Assembly (NCBI RefSeq): GCF_014084125.1
Contig: NZ_CP048405.1
Span: 4,154,001-4,218,000, forward strand
Length of the DNA stretch: 64,000 bases
Origin: Streptacidiphilus sp. PB12-B1b
GTDB lineage: Bacteria > Actinomycetota > Actinomycetes > Streptomycetales > Streptomycetaceae
Direction: 5' to 3'
Part shown: in pieces, positions 44,783 to 52,435 of the stretch
How the letters are laid out: every line of letters starts with the position of its first letter
How positions within the stretch are numbered: position 1 is the stretch's first letter
Position numbers and translations under genes: made by a program
Notes under the pieces: model-generated
Seen by the model: the letters and a program-made list of their open reading frames with translations, nothing else
Databases searched by the model: none
What the model was told of the DNA's origin: nothing

Positions 44783-47554
44783 GTGCGCATCGCGTTCCCC
44801 GAGCGCCTCCGGGCGCGGCTGCGCCGCAGCCGCCGGTTCTCCGCCCTGGTCGCCGTGCTGGCGCTGGCCGTCGTCGGCCTCGGCGGCTACAGCGCGCTGG
44901 GCCGGGCACAGCCCGCGGTGCGGCAGGAGGTGCTCAGCGTCACCGGCGTGCCCGAGGCCGACGGCACCCCGGTCAAGCTCGACGCCACGCTGTACCTCCC
45001 GGCCGGCAGCACCCCCCGGCCGGCCGTGGTGCTGGCCCACGGCTTCGGCGGCAGCAAGGACGACGAAGCCGCCGACGCCCTCTACCTGGCCCGGCACGGC
45101 TATGTGGCGCTGACGTACTCCGCGCGCGGCTTCGGCCGCTCCGGCGGGCTGATCCACCTGGACTCGCCGCAGTACGAGGTGCGGGACGCCGAGCGCATGG
45201 TCGACCTGCTGGCCACCCTGCCGCAGGTGGTCAAGGACGGCCCCGGCGATCCCCGGGTCGGCTTCACCGGCCCCTCCTACGGCGGCGCGCTGAGCCTGCT
45301 GGTCGCCGCCTACGACCACCGGGTCGACGCCATCGCCCCGCAGATCACCTGGAACAGCCTGGGCGCCTCGCTGTTCGGGCAGTCCGCGAGCGGCGGCCGG
45401 GGGACGGCCGGGCCCGGCGTCTTCAAGAAGGCCTGGGCCGGTGACTTCTTCGGCTCGGGCTCCAGCACGCCCGGCGCCGCCCCCGGCGCGCCCGCCGACC
45501 CCTGCGGCCGGTTCGCCCCCGACATCTGCGCCGCCTACCGGACCACCGCCGCCGGGGACGGCACCCCTGCCCCCGGCCTGCTCGACCTGCTGGCCGCCTC
45601 CAGCCCGGCCGGGGTGCTCAATCGCGTCGACGCCCCCACCCTGCTGGTCCAGGGCGAGGACGACTCGCTGTTCGGCCTGGACCAGGCCGACGCCAACGCC
45701 CGCGGCATCGCCGCCCACGGCACCCCGGTCAAGGTCGCCTGGTACTCCGGCGGCCACGACGCGCCGGGCACCTCCGCCGAGACCGCGCAGCTGCGCTCGC
45801 TCACCCTGGCCTGGTTCGACCACTACCTGAAGCACCAGGGGCCGACCCCCTCGACCGCCTTCAGTTTCACCAAAACCGGCACCGACCTGTCGCTGGAGAG
45901 CGGCACCGTCAGCGACTCCACGCTCACCGCGCCCGGCTACCCCGGGCTGCCGGGCGGCGCCGCGCCCCGCAGCACCCCGGTCCGGCTGAACGGCCCGGAG
46001 CAGACCGTGCTAGCCCCGGCCGGGGGCTACCCGGCCGCCACCACCAGCCTGCCCGGCCTGGGCGGGACGCTGGCCCAGCTCGGCTCCGGCAGCCCGGCCC
46101 TGGGCGCGGCCCTGGCCGGGCCGCCGGACCAGCAGGCGGTGTTCACCAGCGCCCCGCTGGCCGGCACCGTCCACGAGGTCGGCGCGGCCTCGGTCGAGCT
46201 GCACGTCGGCCCGGCCACGCCCGGCACCGGGGACGCCACCCTTTTCGCCAAGCTGTACGACCTCTCCCCCGGCGGCCAGGCCGTGCTGCCCGAGCAGCTG
46301 GTGGCGCCGATCCGGCTGACCGGGCTGACCCCGTCCGGCACCGACGTCCGGGTGGCGCTGCCCGGCGTGGTCCACGACTTCCCGGCCGGGCACCGGCTGG
46401 AGCTGGTGGTCTCCACCACCGACCAGGCGTACCAGCTGCCGCAGGACCCGCGCGGCTACCGCGTGGCCCTGGCCGGGAGCAGCACGGTGGGCGTCCCGCT
46501 GGTGGCCGCCGCATCCGCCGACGGCGGCAGCACCGACCTGCTGTGGACCATCGCCGGGATCGCCGCCGCGCTGGTGCTCGGTGCGGTCGGCGCCTGGGTG
46601 CTGCGCCGCCGCAGGCCGGGCGGCGGCATCGACCTCGATCCGGAGCTGGCCGACGTCCCGGTCGCCATCACCGGGCTCGGCAAGGCGTACGGGGACGGCT
46701 TCCGGGCCGTCAGCGACCTCGGCTTCACCGTCGGCCCCGGGCAGGTGCTGGGCCTGCTCGGGCCCAACGGCGCGGGCAAGACCACCACCCTGCGGATGCT
46801 GACCGGTCTGATCTTCCCCACCTCCGGCGAGATCCGGGTCTTCGGCCACCGGATCGTCCCGGGCGCGCCGGTGCTGTCCCGGGTCGGCGCGTTCATCGAG
46901 GGCCCCGGCTTCCTGCCGCACCTCTCCGGCCGGGAGAACCTGGCCCTGGCCTGGGCCGCCACCGGCCGTCCCGAGGCCGACGCGGACTTCGCCGCGGCGC
47001 TGGAGATCGCGGGCCTCGGCAAGGACCTGGAGCGCAAGGTCCGCGCCTACAGCCAGGGCATGCGGCAGCGGCTCGCCGTGGCCCAGGCCATGCTGGGCCT
47101 GCCCGACCTGCTGATCCTGGACGAGCCCACCAACGGCCTGGACCCGCCGCAGATCCGCGAGATGCGCGAGTCGCTGCGCCGCTACGCCGCCACCGGGCGC
47201 ACCGTGGTGGTCTCCAGCCACCTGCTGGCCGAGGTGGAGCAGACCTGCACGCACTGCGTGGTGATGGCGCGCGGGCGGCTGCTCGCCGCCGGGCCGGTGG
47301 ACGAGCTGATCGGCGCGGCCTCCTCCGTGCACATCGACGTCGACCAGCCCGCGCGGGCGGTCGAGCTGCTGACCGGGCTGCCCGGCGTGCTGGCCGCGCG
47401 CACCGGCTCCGACGGCGCGCTCGTCGTCGACCTGGACCGGATCCGGCCCGCCGTGGCGGTCAAGGTCCTGGTCGAGGCCGGTCTCGCGGTCGACCGCATC
47501 GCTCCACGGCGCCGCCTGGAGGACGTCTTCCTCGACCTCGTCCACGAAGGGTGA
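44783..47554 (+). CDS. fused CocE/PepX-type hydrolase and ABC ATPase
   Basis: A 923-residue two-part protein. Residues 20-40 form a membrane helix; about 50-350 an alpha/beta hydrolase with nucleophile motif GFTGPSYGGALS, acid in LVQGEDDSLFG and His in YSGGHDAPG; about 380-575 a PepX_C-like beta domain. A second helix (WTIAGIAAALVLGAVGAWVL, about 587-606) returns to the cytoplasm. Residues 620-920 are an ABC ATPase with Walker A GPNGAGKTT, signature-region YSQGMRQR, Walker B LLILDEPTNGLD and an H-loop in SSHLLAEVEQ. The hydrolase would thus face outside. GTG start after GAGAGG. Confidence 0.88.
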   Translation: MRIAFPERLRARLRRSRRFSALVAVLALAVVGLGGYSALGRAQPAVRQEVLSVTGVPEADGTPVKLDATLYLPAGSTPRPAVVLAHGFGGSKDDEAADALYLARHGYVALTYSARGFGRSGGLIHLDSPQYEVRDAERMVDLLATLPQVVKDGPGDPRVGFTGPSYGGALSLLVAAYDHRVDAIAPQITWNSLGASLFGQSASGGRGTAGPGVFKKAWAGDFFGSGSSTPGAAPGAPADPCGRFAPDICAAYRTTAAGDGTPAPGLLDLLAASSPAGVLNRVDAPTLLVQGEDDSLFGLDQADANARGIAAHGTPVKVAWYSGGHDAPGTSAETAQLRSLTLAWFDHYLKHQGPTPSTAFSFTKTGTDLSLESGTVSDSTLTAPGYPGLPGGAAPRSTPVRLNGPEQTVLAPAGGYPAATTSLPGLGGTLAQLGSGSPALGAALAGPPDQQAVFTSAPLAGTVHEVGAASVELHVGPATPGTGDATLFAKLYDLSPGGQAVLPEQLVAPIRLTGLTPSGTDVRVALPGVVHDFPAGHRLELVVSTTDQAYQLPQDPRGYRVALAGSSTVGVPLVAAASADGGSTDLLWTIAGIAAALVLGAVGAWVLRRRRPGGGIDLDPELADVPVAITGLGKAYGDGFRAVSDLGFTVGPGQVLGLLGPNGAGKTTTLRMLTGLIFPTSGEIRVFGHRIVPGAPVLSRVGAFIEGPGFLPHLSGRENLALAWAATGRPEADADFAAALEIAGLGKDLERKVRAYSQGMRQRLAVAQAMLGLPDLLILDEPTNGLDPPQIREMRESLRRYAATGRTVVVSSHLLAEVEQTCTHCVVMARGRLLAAGPVDELIGAASSVHIDVDQPARAVELLTGLPGVLAARTGSDGALVVDLDRIRPAVAVKVLVEAGLAVDRIAPRRRLEDVFLDLVHEG

Positions 47555-47562
47555 ACCCCGAC

Positions 47563-48570
47563 ATGCCCGCCCCTGATGCCGTGCCCGCCCCCGACGCCCG
47601 GCCCGCCGCCGACGCCGGGCCCGCACCGGAGCCGCAGCGCCCGCCGGAGCAGCCGCAGCGCGGCGTCGGCCGGGGCAGCCACACCGGGCTGAGCAGCGCC
47701 GACAGCCCGCCGCGCGCCTCCGCGCCGCACGGCGGGGCACCCGGCTACGACCCGCGCCGGACGCTGCCGCTGCGGGTGGAGCTGCGGCGGCAGCTGGGCC
47801 GGAACCGCACCCGGATCACCCTGGGGCTGCTGGTGGTGCTGCCGCTGCTGCTGGTCGCCGCGTTCAAACTGGGCGGCTCCGCGCCCGACCGCAACGGGCA
47901 GGTCACCCTGGTCGACTTCGCCACCGTGGGCGCGGCCAACTTCGCGCTGTTCGCCGTCTTCGCCTCGTCCGGCTTCCTGCTGGTCATCGTCGTCGCCCTG
48001 TTCTGCGGCGACACCGTGGCCAGCGAGGCCGGCTGGTCCAGCCTGCGCTACCTGCTGATCTCGCCGGTCGGACGGGCCCGGCTGCTGCGCCGCAAGCTGA
48101 CCGTCTCGCTGGGGCTGTCCGGTTTCGCCCTGGTGCTGCTGCCGGTGGTGTCGCTACTGGCGGGCTGGGCCGCCTTCGGCTGGCACCCGGTGCAGTCGCC
48201 GACCGGCGCCGGGCTGGGCACCGGGGCCGCGCTGGTCCGGCTGGCGATCATCGTCGGCTACCTCGCGGTCAGCCTGACCTTCGTCGCCGCCCTGGCCTTC
48301 TACGCCGGGGTCAGCACCGACGCGCCGCTGGGCGCGGTCGGCGGGACGGTGCTGATCGTCATCGTCTCCACCATCCTCGACAACGTCACCGCCCTGGGCG
48401 GGCTGCGGGACTGGCTGCCGACGCACTACGCGGACGCCTGGCTGGACGCCCTGGACCCGAGCGTCCAGTGGGACGCCATGCTGCGCGGCACGCTCTCCGC
48501 CCTGGTCTACAGCACCGTGCTGTTCGCCCTGGCCTGGCGGCACTTCCTGCGCAAGGACATCGTCAGCTGA
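47563..48570 (+). CDS. ABC-2 type permease partner of the fused hydrolase/ATPase
   Basis: A 335-residue membrane protein with a Pro/Ala-rich N-terminal 65 residues and six helices (from TLGLLVVLPLLLVAAF to ALVYSTVLFALAWRHF). SEAGWSSLRYLLISPVGRARLLRRK is the cytoplasmic coupling segment of ABC-2 permeases. It begins 8 bases after the ATPase stop (a GTG at 47551 overlapping the stop is an alternative), so the two form one transporter operon. Substrate unknown. Confidence 0.85.
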   Translation: MPAPDAVPAPDARPAADAGPAPEPQRPPEQPQRGVGRGSHTGLSSADSPPRASAPHGGAPGYDPRRTLPLRVELRRQLGRNRTRITLGLLVVLPLLLVAAFKLGGSAPDRNGQVTLVDFATVGAANFALFAVFASSGFLLVIVVALFCGDTVASEAGWSSLRYLLISPVGRARLLRRKLTVSLGLSGFALVLLPVVSLLAGWAAFGWHPVQSPTGAGLGTGAALVRLAIIVGYLAVSLTFVAALAFYAGVSTDAPLGAVGGTVLIVIVSTILDNVTALGGLRDWLPTHYADAWLDALDPSVQWDAMLRGTLSALVYSTVLFALAWRHFLRKDIVS

Positions 48571-48619: not shown

Positions 48620-48625
48620 TAGGCT
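48620..48625 (+). promoter_or_regulatory. -10-like element for a leaderless leader-peptide transcript
   Basis: TAGGCT fits TANNNT and ends 7 nt before the leader ATG at 48633, the spacing expected when transcription starts at the A of the start codon. No good -35 element is seen at 17-18 nt; TGGACA at 48587-48592 is too far. Confidence 0.4.
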
Positions 48626-48632
48626 CCGCCAC

Positions 48633-48698
48633 ATGCTGCGCACCGCCACCCTCGCCATGATGCGAATGATGCCCCCGGAACCGGAGGCGCTTCGCTAG
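48633..48698 (+). CDS. 21-residue methionine-rich leader peptide
   Basis: The frame begins MLRTATLAMMRMMPP and ends EALR with TAG. Five of 21 residues are Met, four of them in the cluster MMRMM at 48657-48671. There is no ribosome site, consistent with leaderless translation. The stop codon lies inside a perfect palindrome, and a terminator follows 24 nt later. The arrangement is that of a ribosome-mediated transcription attenuator; the regulated gene is the SAM-related gene at 48819. Confidence 0.65.
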   Translation: MLRTATLAMMRMMPPEPEALR

Positions 48699-48705
48699 CG
48701 AAGCG
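48688..48705 (+). promoter_or_regulatory. 18-bp palindrome over the leader stop codon
   Basis: CGCTTCGCTAGCGAAGCG is a perfect palindrome containing the TAG of the leader peptide. It could be the pause hairpin of the attenuator. The adjacent CCGGAGG (48681-48687) can instead pair with CCTCCGG (48729-48735) in the terminator's left arm, which would form an antiterminator. Confidence 0.55.
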
Positions 48706-48722
48706 GTGTGCGCGCAGGACGC

Positions 48723-48756
48723 GACGGACCTCCGGAAACGGAGGTCCGTCTTTTTT
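48723..48756 (+). terminator. perfect Rho-independent terminator of the attenuator
   Basis: GACGGACCTCCG (48723-48734), a GAAA tetraloop, CGGAGGTCCGTC (48739-48750) and six T. This is the only hairpin in the window I found followed by a real T tract. It lies between the Met-rich leader and the downstream gene. It could also end the upstream ABC operon. Confidence 0.85.
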
Positions 48757-48818
48757 GTTGTCCGCGATCCCCTGAACTCCCAGTGCCCTCCCGAACCCCC
48801 AGAAGGCGAAGAACCGTC

Positions 48819-49658
48819 ATGACCCAGCGACCGGTCGTCTCCCTCACCGACTGCGCCGATCCCAACGCCCTGGCCCGCCAGTCCGCCAGGATCGCCGCGC
48901 TGTTCGGCGCCACGCCCAGCATCCTGCCGCTGACCGGGCCCGACCCGGAGGGCGCCGCCGCGCTCACCCTGCTCGACCTGCTGCGCGCCACCGACCTGGT
49001 CGGCGGCCCGACGCAGCCGACCGTGTTCCTGGTCAACATCGCCCCCAGGGACGGCCACTGGCCCAACGGCGTGCCGTTCTGCTACTTCCACCTCCGCGGG
49101 CACCTGGTCATCAGCACCCTGAACGCGCGGGTGCTGGCCCCGCTGCGCGGCTACCTGGGCGTGGAGGAGGTCCAGGTCACCGATGTGCGCGAGGTGGTCG
49201 AGGCCGCCGCCGGGCAGTGGGCCGGGCTGGCGCAACAGGAGGTCGAGGAGATCGTCCGCACCCAGTTCCGCAGCCTGTGGTACGTGCCGCTGCTGGCCCG
49301 CTGGCTGGTGGACGGCCGTCCGGTGCCCGCGCAGCCGCAGCCGCTGCCCGAGCCCGCGGCCGAGGAGGCGCACGTGCGGGTCGCCGTCGTGGACAACTTC
49401 GGCAACTGCAAGCTGGACCGGCCCGCCGCGCTGATCCCGGGCGGCACGGAGGGCGGCTGGCTGCTGCACAGCCCGCGCGAGGGCGGCACCGTGGAGGTGG
49501 GCCGCTTCGACCGGCTGCCCGACGTGCCGCACGGCCGACCCGGGATCACCACCGGCAGCTCCGGCGTCGGCTTCGCCGAACTGGTGGTGCGCGGAGGCTC
49601 CGCCGCCGACCTCTTCGGGCTGCGCGAGGGCGACCGGCTGCCCTGTCTCACCAGCTGA
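48819..49658 (+). CDS. SAM hydroxide adenosyltransferase-like (DUF62/duf-62 fold) protein
   Basis: A 279-residue protein. N-terminal VVSLTDCADPNALARQSARI recalls the TDFG start of SAM hydroxide adenosyltransferases and related fluorinase/chlorinase enzymes; VFLVNIAPRDG and ISTLNARVLAPL match their middle, and VRVAVVDNFGNCKLDRPAAL is the diagnostic C-terminal block. The family binds S-adenosylmethionine and releases adenosine and methionine. The divergence from the canonical N-terminus makes the exact reaction uncertain. GAAGGCGAAG precedes the ATG. A Met-rich leader and terminator lie upstream. Confidence 0.75.
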   Translation: MTQRPVVSLTDCADPNALARQSARIAALFGATPSILPLTGPDPEGAAALTLLDLLRATDLVGGPTQPTVFLVNIAPRDGHWPNGVPFCYFHLRGHLVISTLNARVLAPLRGYLGVEEVQVTDVREVVEAAAGQWAGLAQQEVEEIVRTQFRSLWYVPLLARWLVDGRPVPAQPQPLPEPAAEEAHVRVAVVDNFGNCKLDRPAALIPGGTEGGWLLHSPREGGTVEVGRFDRLPDVPHGRPGITTGSSGVGFAELVVRGGSAADLFGLREGDRLPCLTS

Positions 49659-49888
49659 CATGAGACCTGGGCGTTACCAGAAGGTAGCCGACCCGATTGA
49701 CACCGCAGGTGACCGCCCGGAATGCTGAAACGCATGTCCGGAAACCGATCCCTGGTACGTCGCCGCCACGTTGACCACGCACGTTGCGCCGCCGACCTGT
49801 GTCGCTGAGCTGTACCACCGCCCGACCGGACGCCCACCGCCGGCGTCCCCGTAGTGTCCTTCCGGACTCCATCGCAAAGGAACCACCC

Positions 49889-50788
49889 GTGTCCCGTGCC
49901 CGCACCGCCCTTGCCGCAGCCCTGGGGAGCGCCGTCGTCCTGGCGGCCGCCGCCTGCGCGCCGCAGTCCACCGCGACCTCCACCGCCTCCGCCGGGGCGA
50001 GCTCCGGCACCGGAGCGAGCGCGGCTGCCGCGGCCTGCTCGACCAGCAGCCCGGACCTGTACAAGCAGGGCCAGTTGACGGTGGCCACCGACTCCCCCGC
50101 GTACGCGCCGTGGTTCGACAACAACGCGCCGTCCGACGGCAAGGGCTTCGAGAGCGCGGTGGCCTACGCCGTGGCCGCCAAGCTCGGGTTCGGCAAGAGC
50201 CAGGTCAAGTGGGTGGTCGAGCCCTTCGACAACTCCTATGCGCCGGGCGCCAAGAACTTCGACTTCGATATCAACGAGATCTCGATCACCCCGCAGCGGG
50301 CCCAGGCGGTGGACTTCTCCACCGGCTACTACACCGCCGACCAGGGCGTGTTGGTGCTGAACAACTCCAAGTACGCCAAGGCCGGCTCGCTCTCCGCACT
50401 GAAGGACGCCAAGATCGGCGTCCAGGTGGCCACCACCAGCTACCAGGCGGTGCAGGACGAGATCAAGCCGGCCCACGCGCCGAGCGTCTACAACACCACC
50501 AACGACGAGGTCAACGCCCTCCAGGACGGCCAGATCGACGCCATCGTCACCGACATGCCGACCGTGTTCTACCTGTCCAGCGCCGAGCTGAGCCACGGGA
50601 AGATCCTCGGCGCGTTCGGCTACAACGGCAGCTCGCCCGAGCAGTTCGGGCTGCTGCTGAAGAAGGGCAGCGGGCTGACCTCCTGCGTGGACCAGGCGAT
50701 CGCCGGGCTCAAGTCCGACGGCACGCTCGCCCGGATCACCACCCAGTGGCTCTCGGCCTCGGCCGACGTGCCCGAGCTGAAGCAGTAA
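49889..50788 (+). CDS. amino-acid ABC transporter substrate-binding lipoprotein
   Basis: A 299-residue family-3 solute-binding protein from a GTG (AAAGGA upstream). A lipoprotein signal ends AAAAC-AP. The mature protein has LTVATDSPAYAPWFDNN, GFESAVAYAVAAKLGF, EISITPQRAQAVDFSTGYYTADQ, IGVQVATTSYQAVQ and IDAIVTDMP, typical of polar amino-acid binding proteins. Delivers ligand to the permease encoded 10 bp downstream. A TTGACA at 49697-49702 is a possible -35 element. Exact ligand unknown. Confidence 0.88.
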   Translation: MSRARTALAAALGSAVVLAAAACAPQSTATSTASAGASSGTGASAAAAACSTSSPDLYKQGQLTVATDSPAYAPWFDNNAPSDGKGFESAVAYAVAAKLGFGKSQVKWVVEPFDNSYAPGAKNFDFDINEISITPQRAQAVDFSTGYYTADQGVLVLNNSKYAKAGSLSALKDAKIGVQVATTSYQAVQDEIKPAHAPSVYNTTNDEVNALQDGQIDAIVTDMPTVFYLSSAELSHGKILGAFGYNGSSPEQFGLLLKKGSGLTSCVDQAIAGLKSDGTLARITTQWLSASADVPELKQ

Positions 50789-50798
50789 GCGGACGACG

Positions 50799-51698
50799 GT
50801 GGACCACGAAACCACGGCCGCGCTGGACCAGCAGGCCACCGCGCCGGACGCCGGGTACCGGCCCAGCGACCGGCAGCAGGAGCGCGAGCGGTTCCGCCGC
50901 GCCCGCAAGCGCCGCAACACCTGGATCGCCGCCCTGTGCACGGTGGCGTTCCTGGTGGTGGTGGGCGCGGCTGTGGTCGCGTCCCCCGGCTGGGCGCGGG
51001 TGCACAGCCTGTTCCTGGACAGCGGCGAGTTCCGCAGGACGCTGCCGGCGATCCTCCGGGGCTTCTGGCTGAACATCCAGATGTTCCTGATCGCCGAGGT
51101 GCTGATCCTGGTCCTGGGGCTGCTGATCGCCCTGGTCCGGGTGACCAGGGCGCCGGGCCTGCAACCGCTGCGGCTGGCCGCGACCCTCTACGTGGACGTG
51201 TTCCGCGGTGTGCCGACGCTGCTGCTGGTGTTCCTGATCGGCTACGGCCTGCCCGCGCTCCAGCTCCAGGGCACGCCCTCGCAGCCGTGGGTGCTCGGGG
51301 TGATCGCGCTGGTGCTGTCGTACGCCGCCTATGTCGCCGAGGTGTTCCGGGCCGGGCTGAACTCGGTGCACCCGGCGCAGCGCAACGCGGCCCGGGCGCT
51401 GGGGCTGAACGAGTCGCAGACGCTGCGGCACGTGATCCTGCCGCAGGCGGTCCGCAATGTGATCCCGCCGCTGTTGAACGACTTCATCGCGCTGCAGAAG
51501 GACACCGCGCTGGTGGCCGTCCTCGGCCCGCTGGAGGCGCTGCGGGTGGCGCAGATCAACGCCGACTACAACTTCAACTACACCCCCTACCTGGGTGCGG
51601 CGCTGCTGTTCATCGCCGTGACCATCCCGCTGACCCGGTACGCCGACCGACTGCAGCGGCGGGCGTCCCAGCGGCAGCGGGCGGAGGCGGCACGATGA
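50799..51698 (+). CDS. amino-acid ABC transporter permease (HisM/GlnP type)
   Basis: A 299-residue permease with a 42-residue charged cytoplasmic N-terminus and about five to six helices. The family coupling motif lies in AARALGLNESQTLRHVILPQAVR; FRGVPTLLLVFLIGYGLP and DTALVAVLGPLEALR are also typical of HisM/GlnP-type permeases. GTG start 10 bp after the binding-protein stop; its own stop overlaps the ATPase start (ATGA). The N-terminal extension is longer than in most HisM proteins. Confidence 0.88.
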   Translation: MDHETTAALDQQATAPDAGYRPSDRQQERERFRRARKRRNTWIAALCTVAFLVVVGAAVVASPGWARVHSLFLDSGEFRRTLPAILRGFWLNIQMFLIAEVLILVLGLLIALVRVTRAPGLQPLRLAATLYVDVFRGVPTLLLVFLIGYGLPALQLQGTPSQPWVLGVIALVLSYAAYVAEVFRAGLNSVHPAQRNAARALGLNESQTLRHVILPQAVRNVIPPLLNDFIALQKDTALVAVLGPLEALRVAQINADYNFNYTPYLGAALLFIAVTIPLTRYADRLQRRASQRQRAEAAR

Positions 51699-52435
51699 CC
51701 GAGGCACTGCTGCGGATCCGCGGCCTGCGCAAGCAGTACGGCTCGCGGCTGGTCCTGCGCTCGATCGACCTGGACGTCGCCGAGCACCAGGTGGTGTGCC
51801 TGATCGGGGGCTCCGGCTCGGGCAAGTCGACGCTGCTGCGCTGCGTGGACCTGCTGGACGAGGTCGACGACGGCACCGTGCACCTGGGCGGGACCGAGCT
51901 GACCGATCCGCGGCTGGACGCCAACGCGGCGCGCCGCCGGATCGGTGTCGTCTTCCAGGCGTACAACCTCTTCCCGCACCTGAGCGTGGTGGACAACATC
52001 ACCCTGGCGCCGCGCCGGGTGCACGGGGTGCCGCGCAAGGAGGCCGAGGAGACCGCGCGGGAGCTGCTGGCCCGGCTGGGCCTGGCCGACAAGGCGCAGG
52101 ACTACCCGGACCGGCTGTCCGGCGGCCAGCAGCAGCGCGCGGCGATCGCGCGCGCCCTGGCCACCGGGCCGGAGCTGCTGCTGTTCGACGAGATCACCTC
52201 GGCGCTGGACCCGGAGCTGGTGGGCGAGGTGCTGGACGTGGTCGCCGACCTCAAGCAGCGCGGGCTGACCATCCTGATGGCCACGCACGAGATGGGCTTC
52301 GCCCGGCACGCCGCCGACCAGGTGTGCTACCTGGAGGACGGCGTGATCCGGGAGCAGGGCAGCGCCGAGCAGGTGCTCACCGACCCGCAGCACGCCTCGA
52401 CCCGGCGCTTCCTCTCCCGGGTGCTGGAGCGGTAG
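51695..52435 (+). CDS. amino-acid ABC transporter ATPase (GlnQ type)
   Basis: A 246-residue ATPase with Walker A GGSGSGKSTLLRC, Q-loop VVFQAYNLFPHL, signature RLSGGQQQRAAIARAL, Walker B ELLLFDEITSALDPE and H-loop MATHEMGFA. It powers the importer with the two preceding genes. The downstream phosphoesterase gene is convergent after 22 bp. Confidence 0.93.
   Translation: MTEALLRIRGLRKQYGSRLVLRSIDLDVAEHQVVCLIGGSGSGKSTLLRCVDLLDEVDDGTVHLGGTELTDPRLDANAARRRIGVVFQAYNLFPHLSVVDNITLAPRRVHGVPRKEAEETARELLARLGLADKAQDYPDRLSGGQQQRAAIARALATGPELLLFDEITSALDPELVGEVLDVVADLKQRGLTILMATHEMGFARHAADQVCYLEDGVIREQGSAEQVLTDPQHASTRRFLSRVLER

Follow-up and report, generated by a model that had tools for sequence, protein, structure and literature searches.

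A conserved leader precedes the gene for a SAM-hydrolase-fold protein in Streptacidiphilus sp. PB12-B1b and is tied to that gene wherever it was found in other actinobacteria. We consider it almost certain that this leader is a ribosome-mediated transcription attenuator, and methionine supply is probably the signal to which it responds. It would be a conserved bacterial methionine attenuator known together with its target.

Organization of the Leader

The stretch of DNA analysed, 64,000 nucleotides from a 7.67 Mb genome assembled as a single contig, is called the window here; its features lie on the plus strand unless stated otherwise. An initial annotation, made from the letters of the window, had proposed a methionine-sensing attenuator, and every element that it listed was found where it had been placed. 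The -10 box TAGGCT of the leader promoter (48620..48625) is situated 7 nt 5' of the start codon, and a leaderless transcript is predicted. The leader ORF (48633..48698) runs for 21 codons from the ATG at 48633 to the TAG at 48696-48698, encodes MLRTATLAMMRMMPPEPEALR*, and contains the invariant core ATG CGA ATG ATG (48660..48671; family pattern [AC]TG CGA ATG [AC]TG), which is the predicted stall site. The P2 hairpin GCC-C-CC/GG-A-GGC (48671..48688) conceals, in folds of the untranslated RNA, the antiterminator 5' strand CCGGAGG (48681..48687), which was assigned from sequence, pairing, and folds. The P3 palindrome CGCTTCGCTAGCGAAGCG (48688..48705) spans the stop codon and forms a hairpin nested within the antiterminator. 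The intrinsic terminator (48723..48756) consists of a 12-bp stem, GACGGACCTCCG-GAAA-CGGAGGTCCGTC (48723-48750), followed by T6 (48751-48756), and has a folding energy of -25.3 kcal/mol. The antiterminator 3' strand CCTCCGG (48729..48735), complementary to 48681-48687, occupies part of the left arm and loop of this terminator.

Leader starts were searched for as a TANNNT box with an ATG or GTG 4-10 nt on, at most 60 nt from the core, with the frame left free. Box and start were present in 49 of 49 distinct leaders, and the 7-nt spacing was found in 46 of them, compared with 105 of 7961 control windows (1.3%); the promoter box proposed in the initial annotation was thereby borne out. The distance from start to core was 18, 21, 24, 27, or 30 nt, always a multiple of 3, and the start was in the frame of the core in all 48 leaders having one candidate start, across five spacings. 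The remaining leader, L042, has a second candidate ATG, which is out of frame. Judged by these sequences, the short 5' ORF appears to be the translated frame that characterizes ribosome-mediated attenuators.

The core [A/C]TG-CGA-ATG-[A/C]TG was constant, and the leader residues flanking it varied on both sides, those before the core by clade. The conserved Met codons foreseen in the initial annotation were recovered as one invariant ATG beside CGA, but the run of Met codons was not conserved: there are four Met in Streptomycetaceae, two in most Kribbella, and a single one, in the core, in Kribbella kalugense (L033). The invariance was read with a pattern that itself demands the core; it is no artefact, because all actinobacterial homologues examined, except the truncated L050, carry the core and because a covariance model of the leader gave no strong match lacking it. 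CGA makes up 2-4% of the Arg codons in the controlled genes (2 of 16 in Catellatospora).

Most leaders of Streptomyces and some of those of Kitasatospora (e.g., L019, L020, and L021) also carry a palindrome of the form [CT]CACNNN(N)TGGA about 54 nt 5' of the leader start, where its position, immediately before the predicted -35 region, hardly varies. In Streptacidiphilus it was degenerate or missing, and the corresponding position in the other genera showed none. When two Streptomyces genomes were searched for the exact palindrome TGTCCACNNNGTGGA, three sites were found in total, two of them at the leader locus. A dedicated regulator may bind this palindrome. Further upstream in the window, one predicted ORF (44783-47554) encodes both an X-Pro dipeptidyl-peptidase/hydrolase-like domain and an ABC ATPase domain, which is an odd-looking fusion. 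On the minus strand, 48675-48758 resembles the Streptomyces small RNA Scr5676 of Rfam at 22 bits against a gathering score of 56, probably by chance.

Conservation across Genera and Association with One Gene

Homologues of the 279-aa protein encoded behind the leader were collected at 66 loci in named genomes (L006-L071), the closest being that of Streptacidiphilus sp. 4-A2 (83% protein identity), and in 5 of 14 genomes of the genus. A search of 394 genomes of the class with the same protein gave 13 strong matches (E<1e-90), and a search of 293 genomes of the order with a 16-base core pattern gave 9 positive genomes; the class and order sets overlap, and the counts are not additive. Among 396 genomes of the phylum, the gene was detected (E<=1e-20) in that of the window only and is therefore rare.

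The leader module was located upstream of 44 of the 45 actinobacterial homologues (L006-L050), and at 5/5 genus matches and 13/13 strong class matches, sets that both include the window and overlap with L006-L050. The exception, L050 (3001-3489) from Kitasatospora sp. MBT63, is a 5'-truncated gene without the leader that adjoins transporter genes. At L046 and L049, the gene appears to be frame-disrupted, the matched stretch not being a multiple of 3, and sequencing errors are likely. The 56 distinct leaders came from Streptomycetaceae (27), Kribbella (14), Jiangella (11), Actinospica (3), and Catellatospora (1), and the genera with the module are Streptomyces, Kitasatospora, Streptacidiphilus, Actinospica, Kribbella, Jiangella, and Catellatospora. 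The core was absent within the stretch of up to 700 nt checked upstream of the 21 homologues from candidate-phylum and other bacteria (L051-L071).

The covariance model, which was built with leaders from several of the genomes then searched, gave 13 strong matches in the 394 class genomes, and these were the same 13 genomes that had strong matches to the gene. The 9 strong matches in the 293 order genomes all lay at a locus encoding the gene, and these two sets yielded no other strong match. None of nine distinct weak matches (23-32 bits) that were inspected combined core, ORF, and terminator, L120, L123, and L134 holding a core-like word. Because the stricter filters of Infernal were used in the leader searches, diverged leaders may be missed. 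The leader is thus a real and conserved element, and it is tied to the SAM-fold gene.

Predicted Switching between Terminator and Antiterminator

A terminator was located in 56 of 56 leaders, beginning between core+56 and core+70. The gap between terminator and gene was 26-174 nt long and contained a TANNNT box in 1 of 55 leaders, making a separate promoter after the terminator unlikely; the initial annotation had raised such an independent promoter, behind a terminator serving the upstream operon, as the case against its proposal. As far as the sequences tell, an intrinsic terminator thus precedes a first structural gene that seems to have no promoter of its own, as expected of an attenuator.

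The antiterminator 5' strand started near core+20 and had its partner in the left arm or loop of the terminator (50 leaders). The paired sequences differed by clade, namely, CCGGAGG/CCTCCGG, GTGCGG/CCGCAC, and TCGGGA/TCCCGA, and in Kribbella GGAGG/CCTCC or a bulged CGGG-A-GG, the bulged form being recognized by eye. Compared with dinucleotide shuffles, the duplex reached p<=0.02 in 11 of 16 representatives (p=0.006 for the window); those that missed this value were two of four Kribbella, two of five Jiangella, and the one Catellatospora. When partners were swapped between clades, pairing became clearly weaker for Streptomycetaceae versus Jiangella, but the native partner was not the best one for Kribbella, Catellatospora, or Actinospica. 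The compensatory changes anticipated in the initial annotation are accordingly clear between the first two groups and not in the last three, and antiterminator pairing is weak in Catellatospora and in some members of Kribbella and Jiangella. Both the Met codon and the antiterminator were nevertheless kept in relatives, the latter weakly in part.

RNAalifold on 55 leaders (L046, which lacks one base of a C run, was omitted from the alignment of the 56) returned the terminator stem alone (7 pairs), because the P2 and antiterminator sequences differ between clades, and each state was therefore folded separately. The RNA was folded up to the terminator loop with a masked ribosome footprint, assumed to reach 12 nt upstream and 15 nt downstream of the first P-site base, and the antiterminator was scored as formed at >=5 pairs. 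The naked transcript formed it in 1 of 56 leaders and was thus in the off state in 55/56. With the P site at core-6, -3, 0, +3, +6, and +9, the antiterminator was formed in 33, 41, 54, 53, 26, and 14 of 56 leaders, respectively, and with the ribosome at the stop codon in 0 of 55. The peak corresponds to a P site on the core ATG or CGA (48660 or 48663 in the window), with CGA or ATG alike in the A site, and these folds do not discriminate between the two. According to the same models, a stall further upstream would also free the antiterminator in many leaders (41/56 at core-3 and 33/56 at core-6).

In a simpler set-up, all RNA upstream of the 3' edge of the ribosome was removed; the antiterminator was then formed in 56/56 leaders at core+0, +3, and +6, and with the P site at core+3 shuffled leaders formed it in 206/560 cases versus 56/56 for native ones. 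The 0/55 obtained at the stop codon in this set-up follows from the removal of the upstream RNA by design. P2 was present in naked folds of 26/27 Streptomycetaceae, 3/3 Actinospica, 13/14 Kribbella, 11/11 Jiangella, and 0/1 Catellatospora leaders. In 54 of 55 native leaders folded in the stalled state, the antiterminator enclosed a hairpin located at or next to the stop codon, a count that has no shuffled counterpart; this gives the stop-codon palindrome a role. In the full-length stalled transcript, the terminator was the stabler fold in 56/56, so the switch must be kinetic, with the antiterminator winning by forming first. In models folded before the right arm of the terminator exists, the leaders therefore behave as if they had a mutually exclusive antiterminator that is freed by a stall in the core and masked at the stop codon. 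Together with their conservation, these folds strongly support the attenuator architecture of the initial annotation and both ribosome positions that it had proposed.

The Controlled Gene and Its Methionine Content

The controlled gene (48819..49658) encodes a SAM-hydrolase-fold protein (SAM_HAT_C) of 279 aa with no internal Met. The window protein matched the Pfam SAM-HAT C-terminal domain with 34 bits (cut-off 25.5) and gave no match to the Pfam N-terminal SAM-HAT domain; a fold search found the SAM hydroxide adenosyltransferase (DUF62) fold, and phmmer against PDB sequences found nothing convincing. The catalytic triad of SAM hydroxide adenosyltransferases (DUF62) is Asp-Arg-His. In the controlled protein, the Asp is replaced by Ala75 and the His by Phe150, each without exception in 50 homologues, and P82 stands opposite the Arg in the profile alignment. 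Other residues are invariant in this family instead, e.g., N73, A75-P-R77, G79, N83-G84, and Q149-F-R-S152; 2 of 7 canonical SAM-HAT sequences carry Asp at the His position of the triad. The description of the gene as SAM hydroxide-adenosyltransferase-like therefore holds for the fold, but because the triad is missing, release of methionine from SAM is unproven. The loci L051-L071, from Patescibacteria and other candidate-phylum genomes, show the same altered active-site motif, without the leader core upstream and with more Met.

In the window, the gene is followed by those for an amino-acid ABC transporter, namely, a substrate-binding protein (49880..50788, start codon approximate, 1 internal Met), a permease (50799..51698, 1 internal Met), and an ATPase (51695..52435, 2 internal Met), which may all be cotranscribed with it. 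The same three genes, as far as the loci reach, follow in Streptomycetaceae and in Actinospica L017 and L072; no transporter was found after the gene at L005. The operon thus probably includes the neighbouring amino-acid importer in most Streptomycetaceae seen and in some Actinospica. The solved binding proteins nearest to that of the transporter are reconstructed ancestors and binders of various amino acids, and they fix no ligand. Behind the gene, Catellatospora has metK (TIGR01034, 516 bits), which is a second copy in that genome, and Jiangella asiatica (L039) has a gene for an LCP-family transferase; the four Kribbella loci inspected showed no confident same-strand neighbour close behind it.

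Methionine was counted in 195 proteins of 240-330 aa, taken from 196 proteins in the best 120 of 297 and the best 120 of 438 matches; many were from metagenomes, and one longer protein was excluded. No internal Met was present in 142 of these 195 homologues, and internal Met amounted to 0.13% overall, compared with 1.41% in 40 ORFs of the window, or 1.48% in the 37 outside the operon, these ORFs having been picked by codon composition and not by annotation. The ratio of homologues to window genes was lowest for Met (0.09), followed by Lys (0.61), and was 0.97 for Arg and 1.44 for Cys. An arginine sensor acting via CGA, with which folds having CGA in the A site would agree equally well, was rejected on the undepleted Arg, and a general sulfur sensor on the enriched Cys.

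Twelve Kribbella, Jiangella, and Catellatospora loci had 0.26% Met, and twenty leaderless homologues from other phyla, whose base composition differs, had 1.27% (0 to 7 each). Canonical SAM-HATs are also rather Met-poor, with 0.57% in 7 proteins, or 0.53% if eight N-terminal residues are excluded. The transporter orthologues contained 0.40% (binding protein, 20 loci), 0.41% (permease, 19 loci), and 0.91% (ATPase, 19 loci) Met. In the genome of the window, 19 ATPase paralogues had 1.88%, two of them having no Met, one of which is 52% identical, and two permease paralogues had 2 and 5 Met; no binding-protein paralogue there passed the filter for this comparison. The first gene thus shows a firm methionine depletion, and the transporter a modest one. 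Genes of amino-acid biosynthesis are known for their low cognate bias under starvation, and proteins required while an amino acid is lacking tend to avoid it, according to the accessible part of that work (PMC4209129). That the controlled protein is nearly Met-free is the best evidence for methionine scarcity as the signal.

Proposed Mechanism and Alternative Explanations

The scheme that we think likely as a whole is a ribosome-mediated attenuator most probably sensing methionine supply. Transcription would begin at the start codon of the leader, and the ribosome would load without a Shine-Dalgarno site. When Met-tRNA is short, the ribosome would halt in the core with CGA or the preceding codon in the P site, and its 3' edge would cover the left half of P2 and free CCGGAGG. 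The freed strand would pair with CCTCCGG as the latter emerges, with P3 nested inside, so that the terminator would come too late and the operon would be transcribed. When methionine is ample, the ribosome would reach the stop codon and cover CCGGAGG, and the terminator would form. Ribosome-free RNA should also terminate, CCGGAGG being sequestered by P2 and P1. The product of the operon would be the SAM-hydrolase-fold protein, probably joined by an amino-acid importer in some Actinospica and in most of the Streptomycetaceae seen; with so little methionine in them, or none, these proteins can be synthesized even when it is scarce. Methionine as the signal, as put forward in the initial annotation, is favoured indirectly, through the depletion of the product and the metK behind the gene in one relative, Catellatospora.

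Could a simpler reading of the locus suffice? An ABC permease gene on the same strand ends at 48570, and the terminator might merely end that upstream operon, the small ORF being incidental. Upstream ABC genes are found only at L001-L003, L006, and L075 (the genome of the window and two relatives), yet elsewhere the module occurs behind other genes, with frame, core, and antiterminator conserved, and this reading was rejected as having next to no probability. It is also very improbable that the leader is an untranslated, protein-free riboswitch for SAM or another metabolite. The RNA is rich in structure, including a long stem in the untranslated fold of the window that joins the leader start to the region 3' of the leader stop, but no Rfam family matched the window at gathering score, the SAM riboswitch and T-box models included, and four sub-threshold matches near the leader were unrelated. 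Start, core, and stop stay in frame despite variable spacers, and naked RNA folds to the off state in nearly all leaders.

Two further explanations share the stalled ribosome. Nascent [ML]-R-M-[ML] might arrest the ribosome at the Arg-Met step in response to abundant SAM, a SAM product, or a ribosome-binding drug, and the stall would switch on a SAM-consuming enzyme. The invariant part is indeed a short peptide or codon motif in which one Met is strictly conserved, the folds are most favourable to a stall when the P site holds the core ATG or CGA, and for a SAM-fold enzyme downstream a response to high SAM would make sense as feedback. Nevertheless, we regard such ligand-dependent arrest as rather unlikely: the residues N-terminal to the core differ among clades, arrest alone does not need a fixed CGA codon, the literature matches listed included no bacterial SAM-sensing arrest peptide, and the Met depletion of the product points to scarcity and argues against a sensor of excess SAM. 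Antibiotic-responsive attenuators of similar build are known, and any slowing of translation at CGA-ATG might lead to read-through, whether or not methionine is involved. The stall site has a fixed rare codon, and the folds are equally good with CGA in the A site; even so, the strict tie to one SAM-fold gene, whose product is depleted in Met and normal in Arg, makes a general slow-translation sensor an improbable candidate.

The methionine attenuator that we prefer has difficulties of its own. A Met sensor is awkward in principle because initiation on the leader also needs methionine, and Met starvation should also lower fMet-tRNA, which is required for leader translation. A plain Met sensor leaves the fixed CGA unexplained, the Met run is not conserved, and induction of metK upon Met shortage is not obviously sensible. 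Bacterial CGA is decoded by an inosine tRNA via a weak I-A wobble. We tentatively suggest that CGA in the P site makes the next AUG unusually sensitive to Met-tRNA, one primed Met codon replacing the usual run. It is conceivable, though doubtful at present, that such a primed single-codon sensor drives a private, nearly Met-free rescue operon, the enzyme of which would recover methionine from SAM or an imported sulfonium compound with an active site unlike those of known SAM hydrolases.

The three-state design, in which naked RNA is off, makes the problem of methionine-dependent initiation testable, and the fixed CGA-ATG pair is a naturally occurring test case for how P-site wobble tunes stalling. 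The near-absence of Met from the product is an independent sign, readable from sequence alone, of when the protein is made, and it singles out a SAM-fold family that has been little studied and whose active site is altered.

Comparison with Known Systems

A full-text literature search, in which subscription papers are poorly covered so that absence is not proof, yielded no description of such an element. The accessible part of a survey of Actinobacteria by Seliverstov et al. (2005) states that conserved RNA regulatory structures were not observed ahead of methionine operons (PMC1262725), and that of a survey of premature terminators mentions no such methionine element (PMC2965389). The closest known enzymes to the controlled protein are the SAM hydroxide adenosyltransferase/SAM hydrolase DUF62 (PH0463 and MJ1651), the chlorinase SalL, and the fluorinase; compared with DUF62, the present protein has Ala75 and Phe150 for Asp and His, does not keep the Arg, and has a different set of invariant residues. 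In the re-annotation of Streptomyces lividans, as far as its text is accessible, a Met leader, metL, is proposed before metNIQ (PMC8079986). It is likewise a leaderless small ORF with Met codons in front of a methionine-related operon, but metL encodes 29 aa with CMCRRMC and lacks the CGA-ATG core, it precedes other genes, it is without a typical Rho-independent terminator according to that paper, and the part consulted contains no test of its conservation (PMC8079986). The classical actinobacterial attenuators of trp, trpS, and leuS, as described in the accessible part of the 2005 survey (PMC1262725), resemble the present leader in having a leader ORF and alternative antiterminator and terminator pairing and differ from it in signal and gene.
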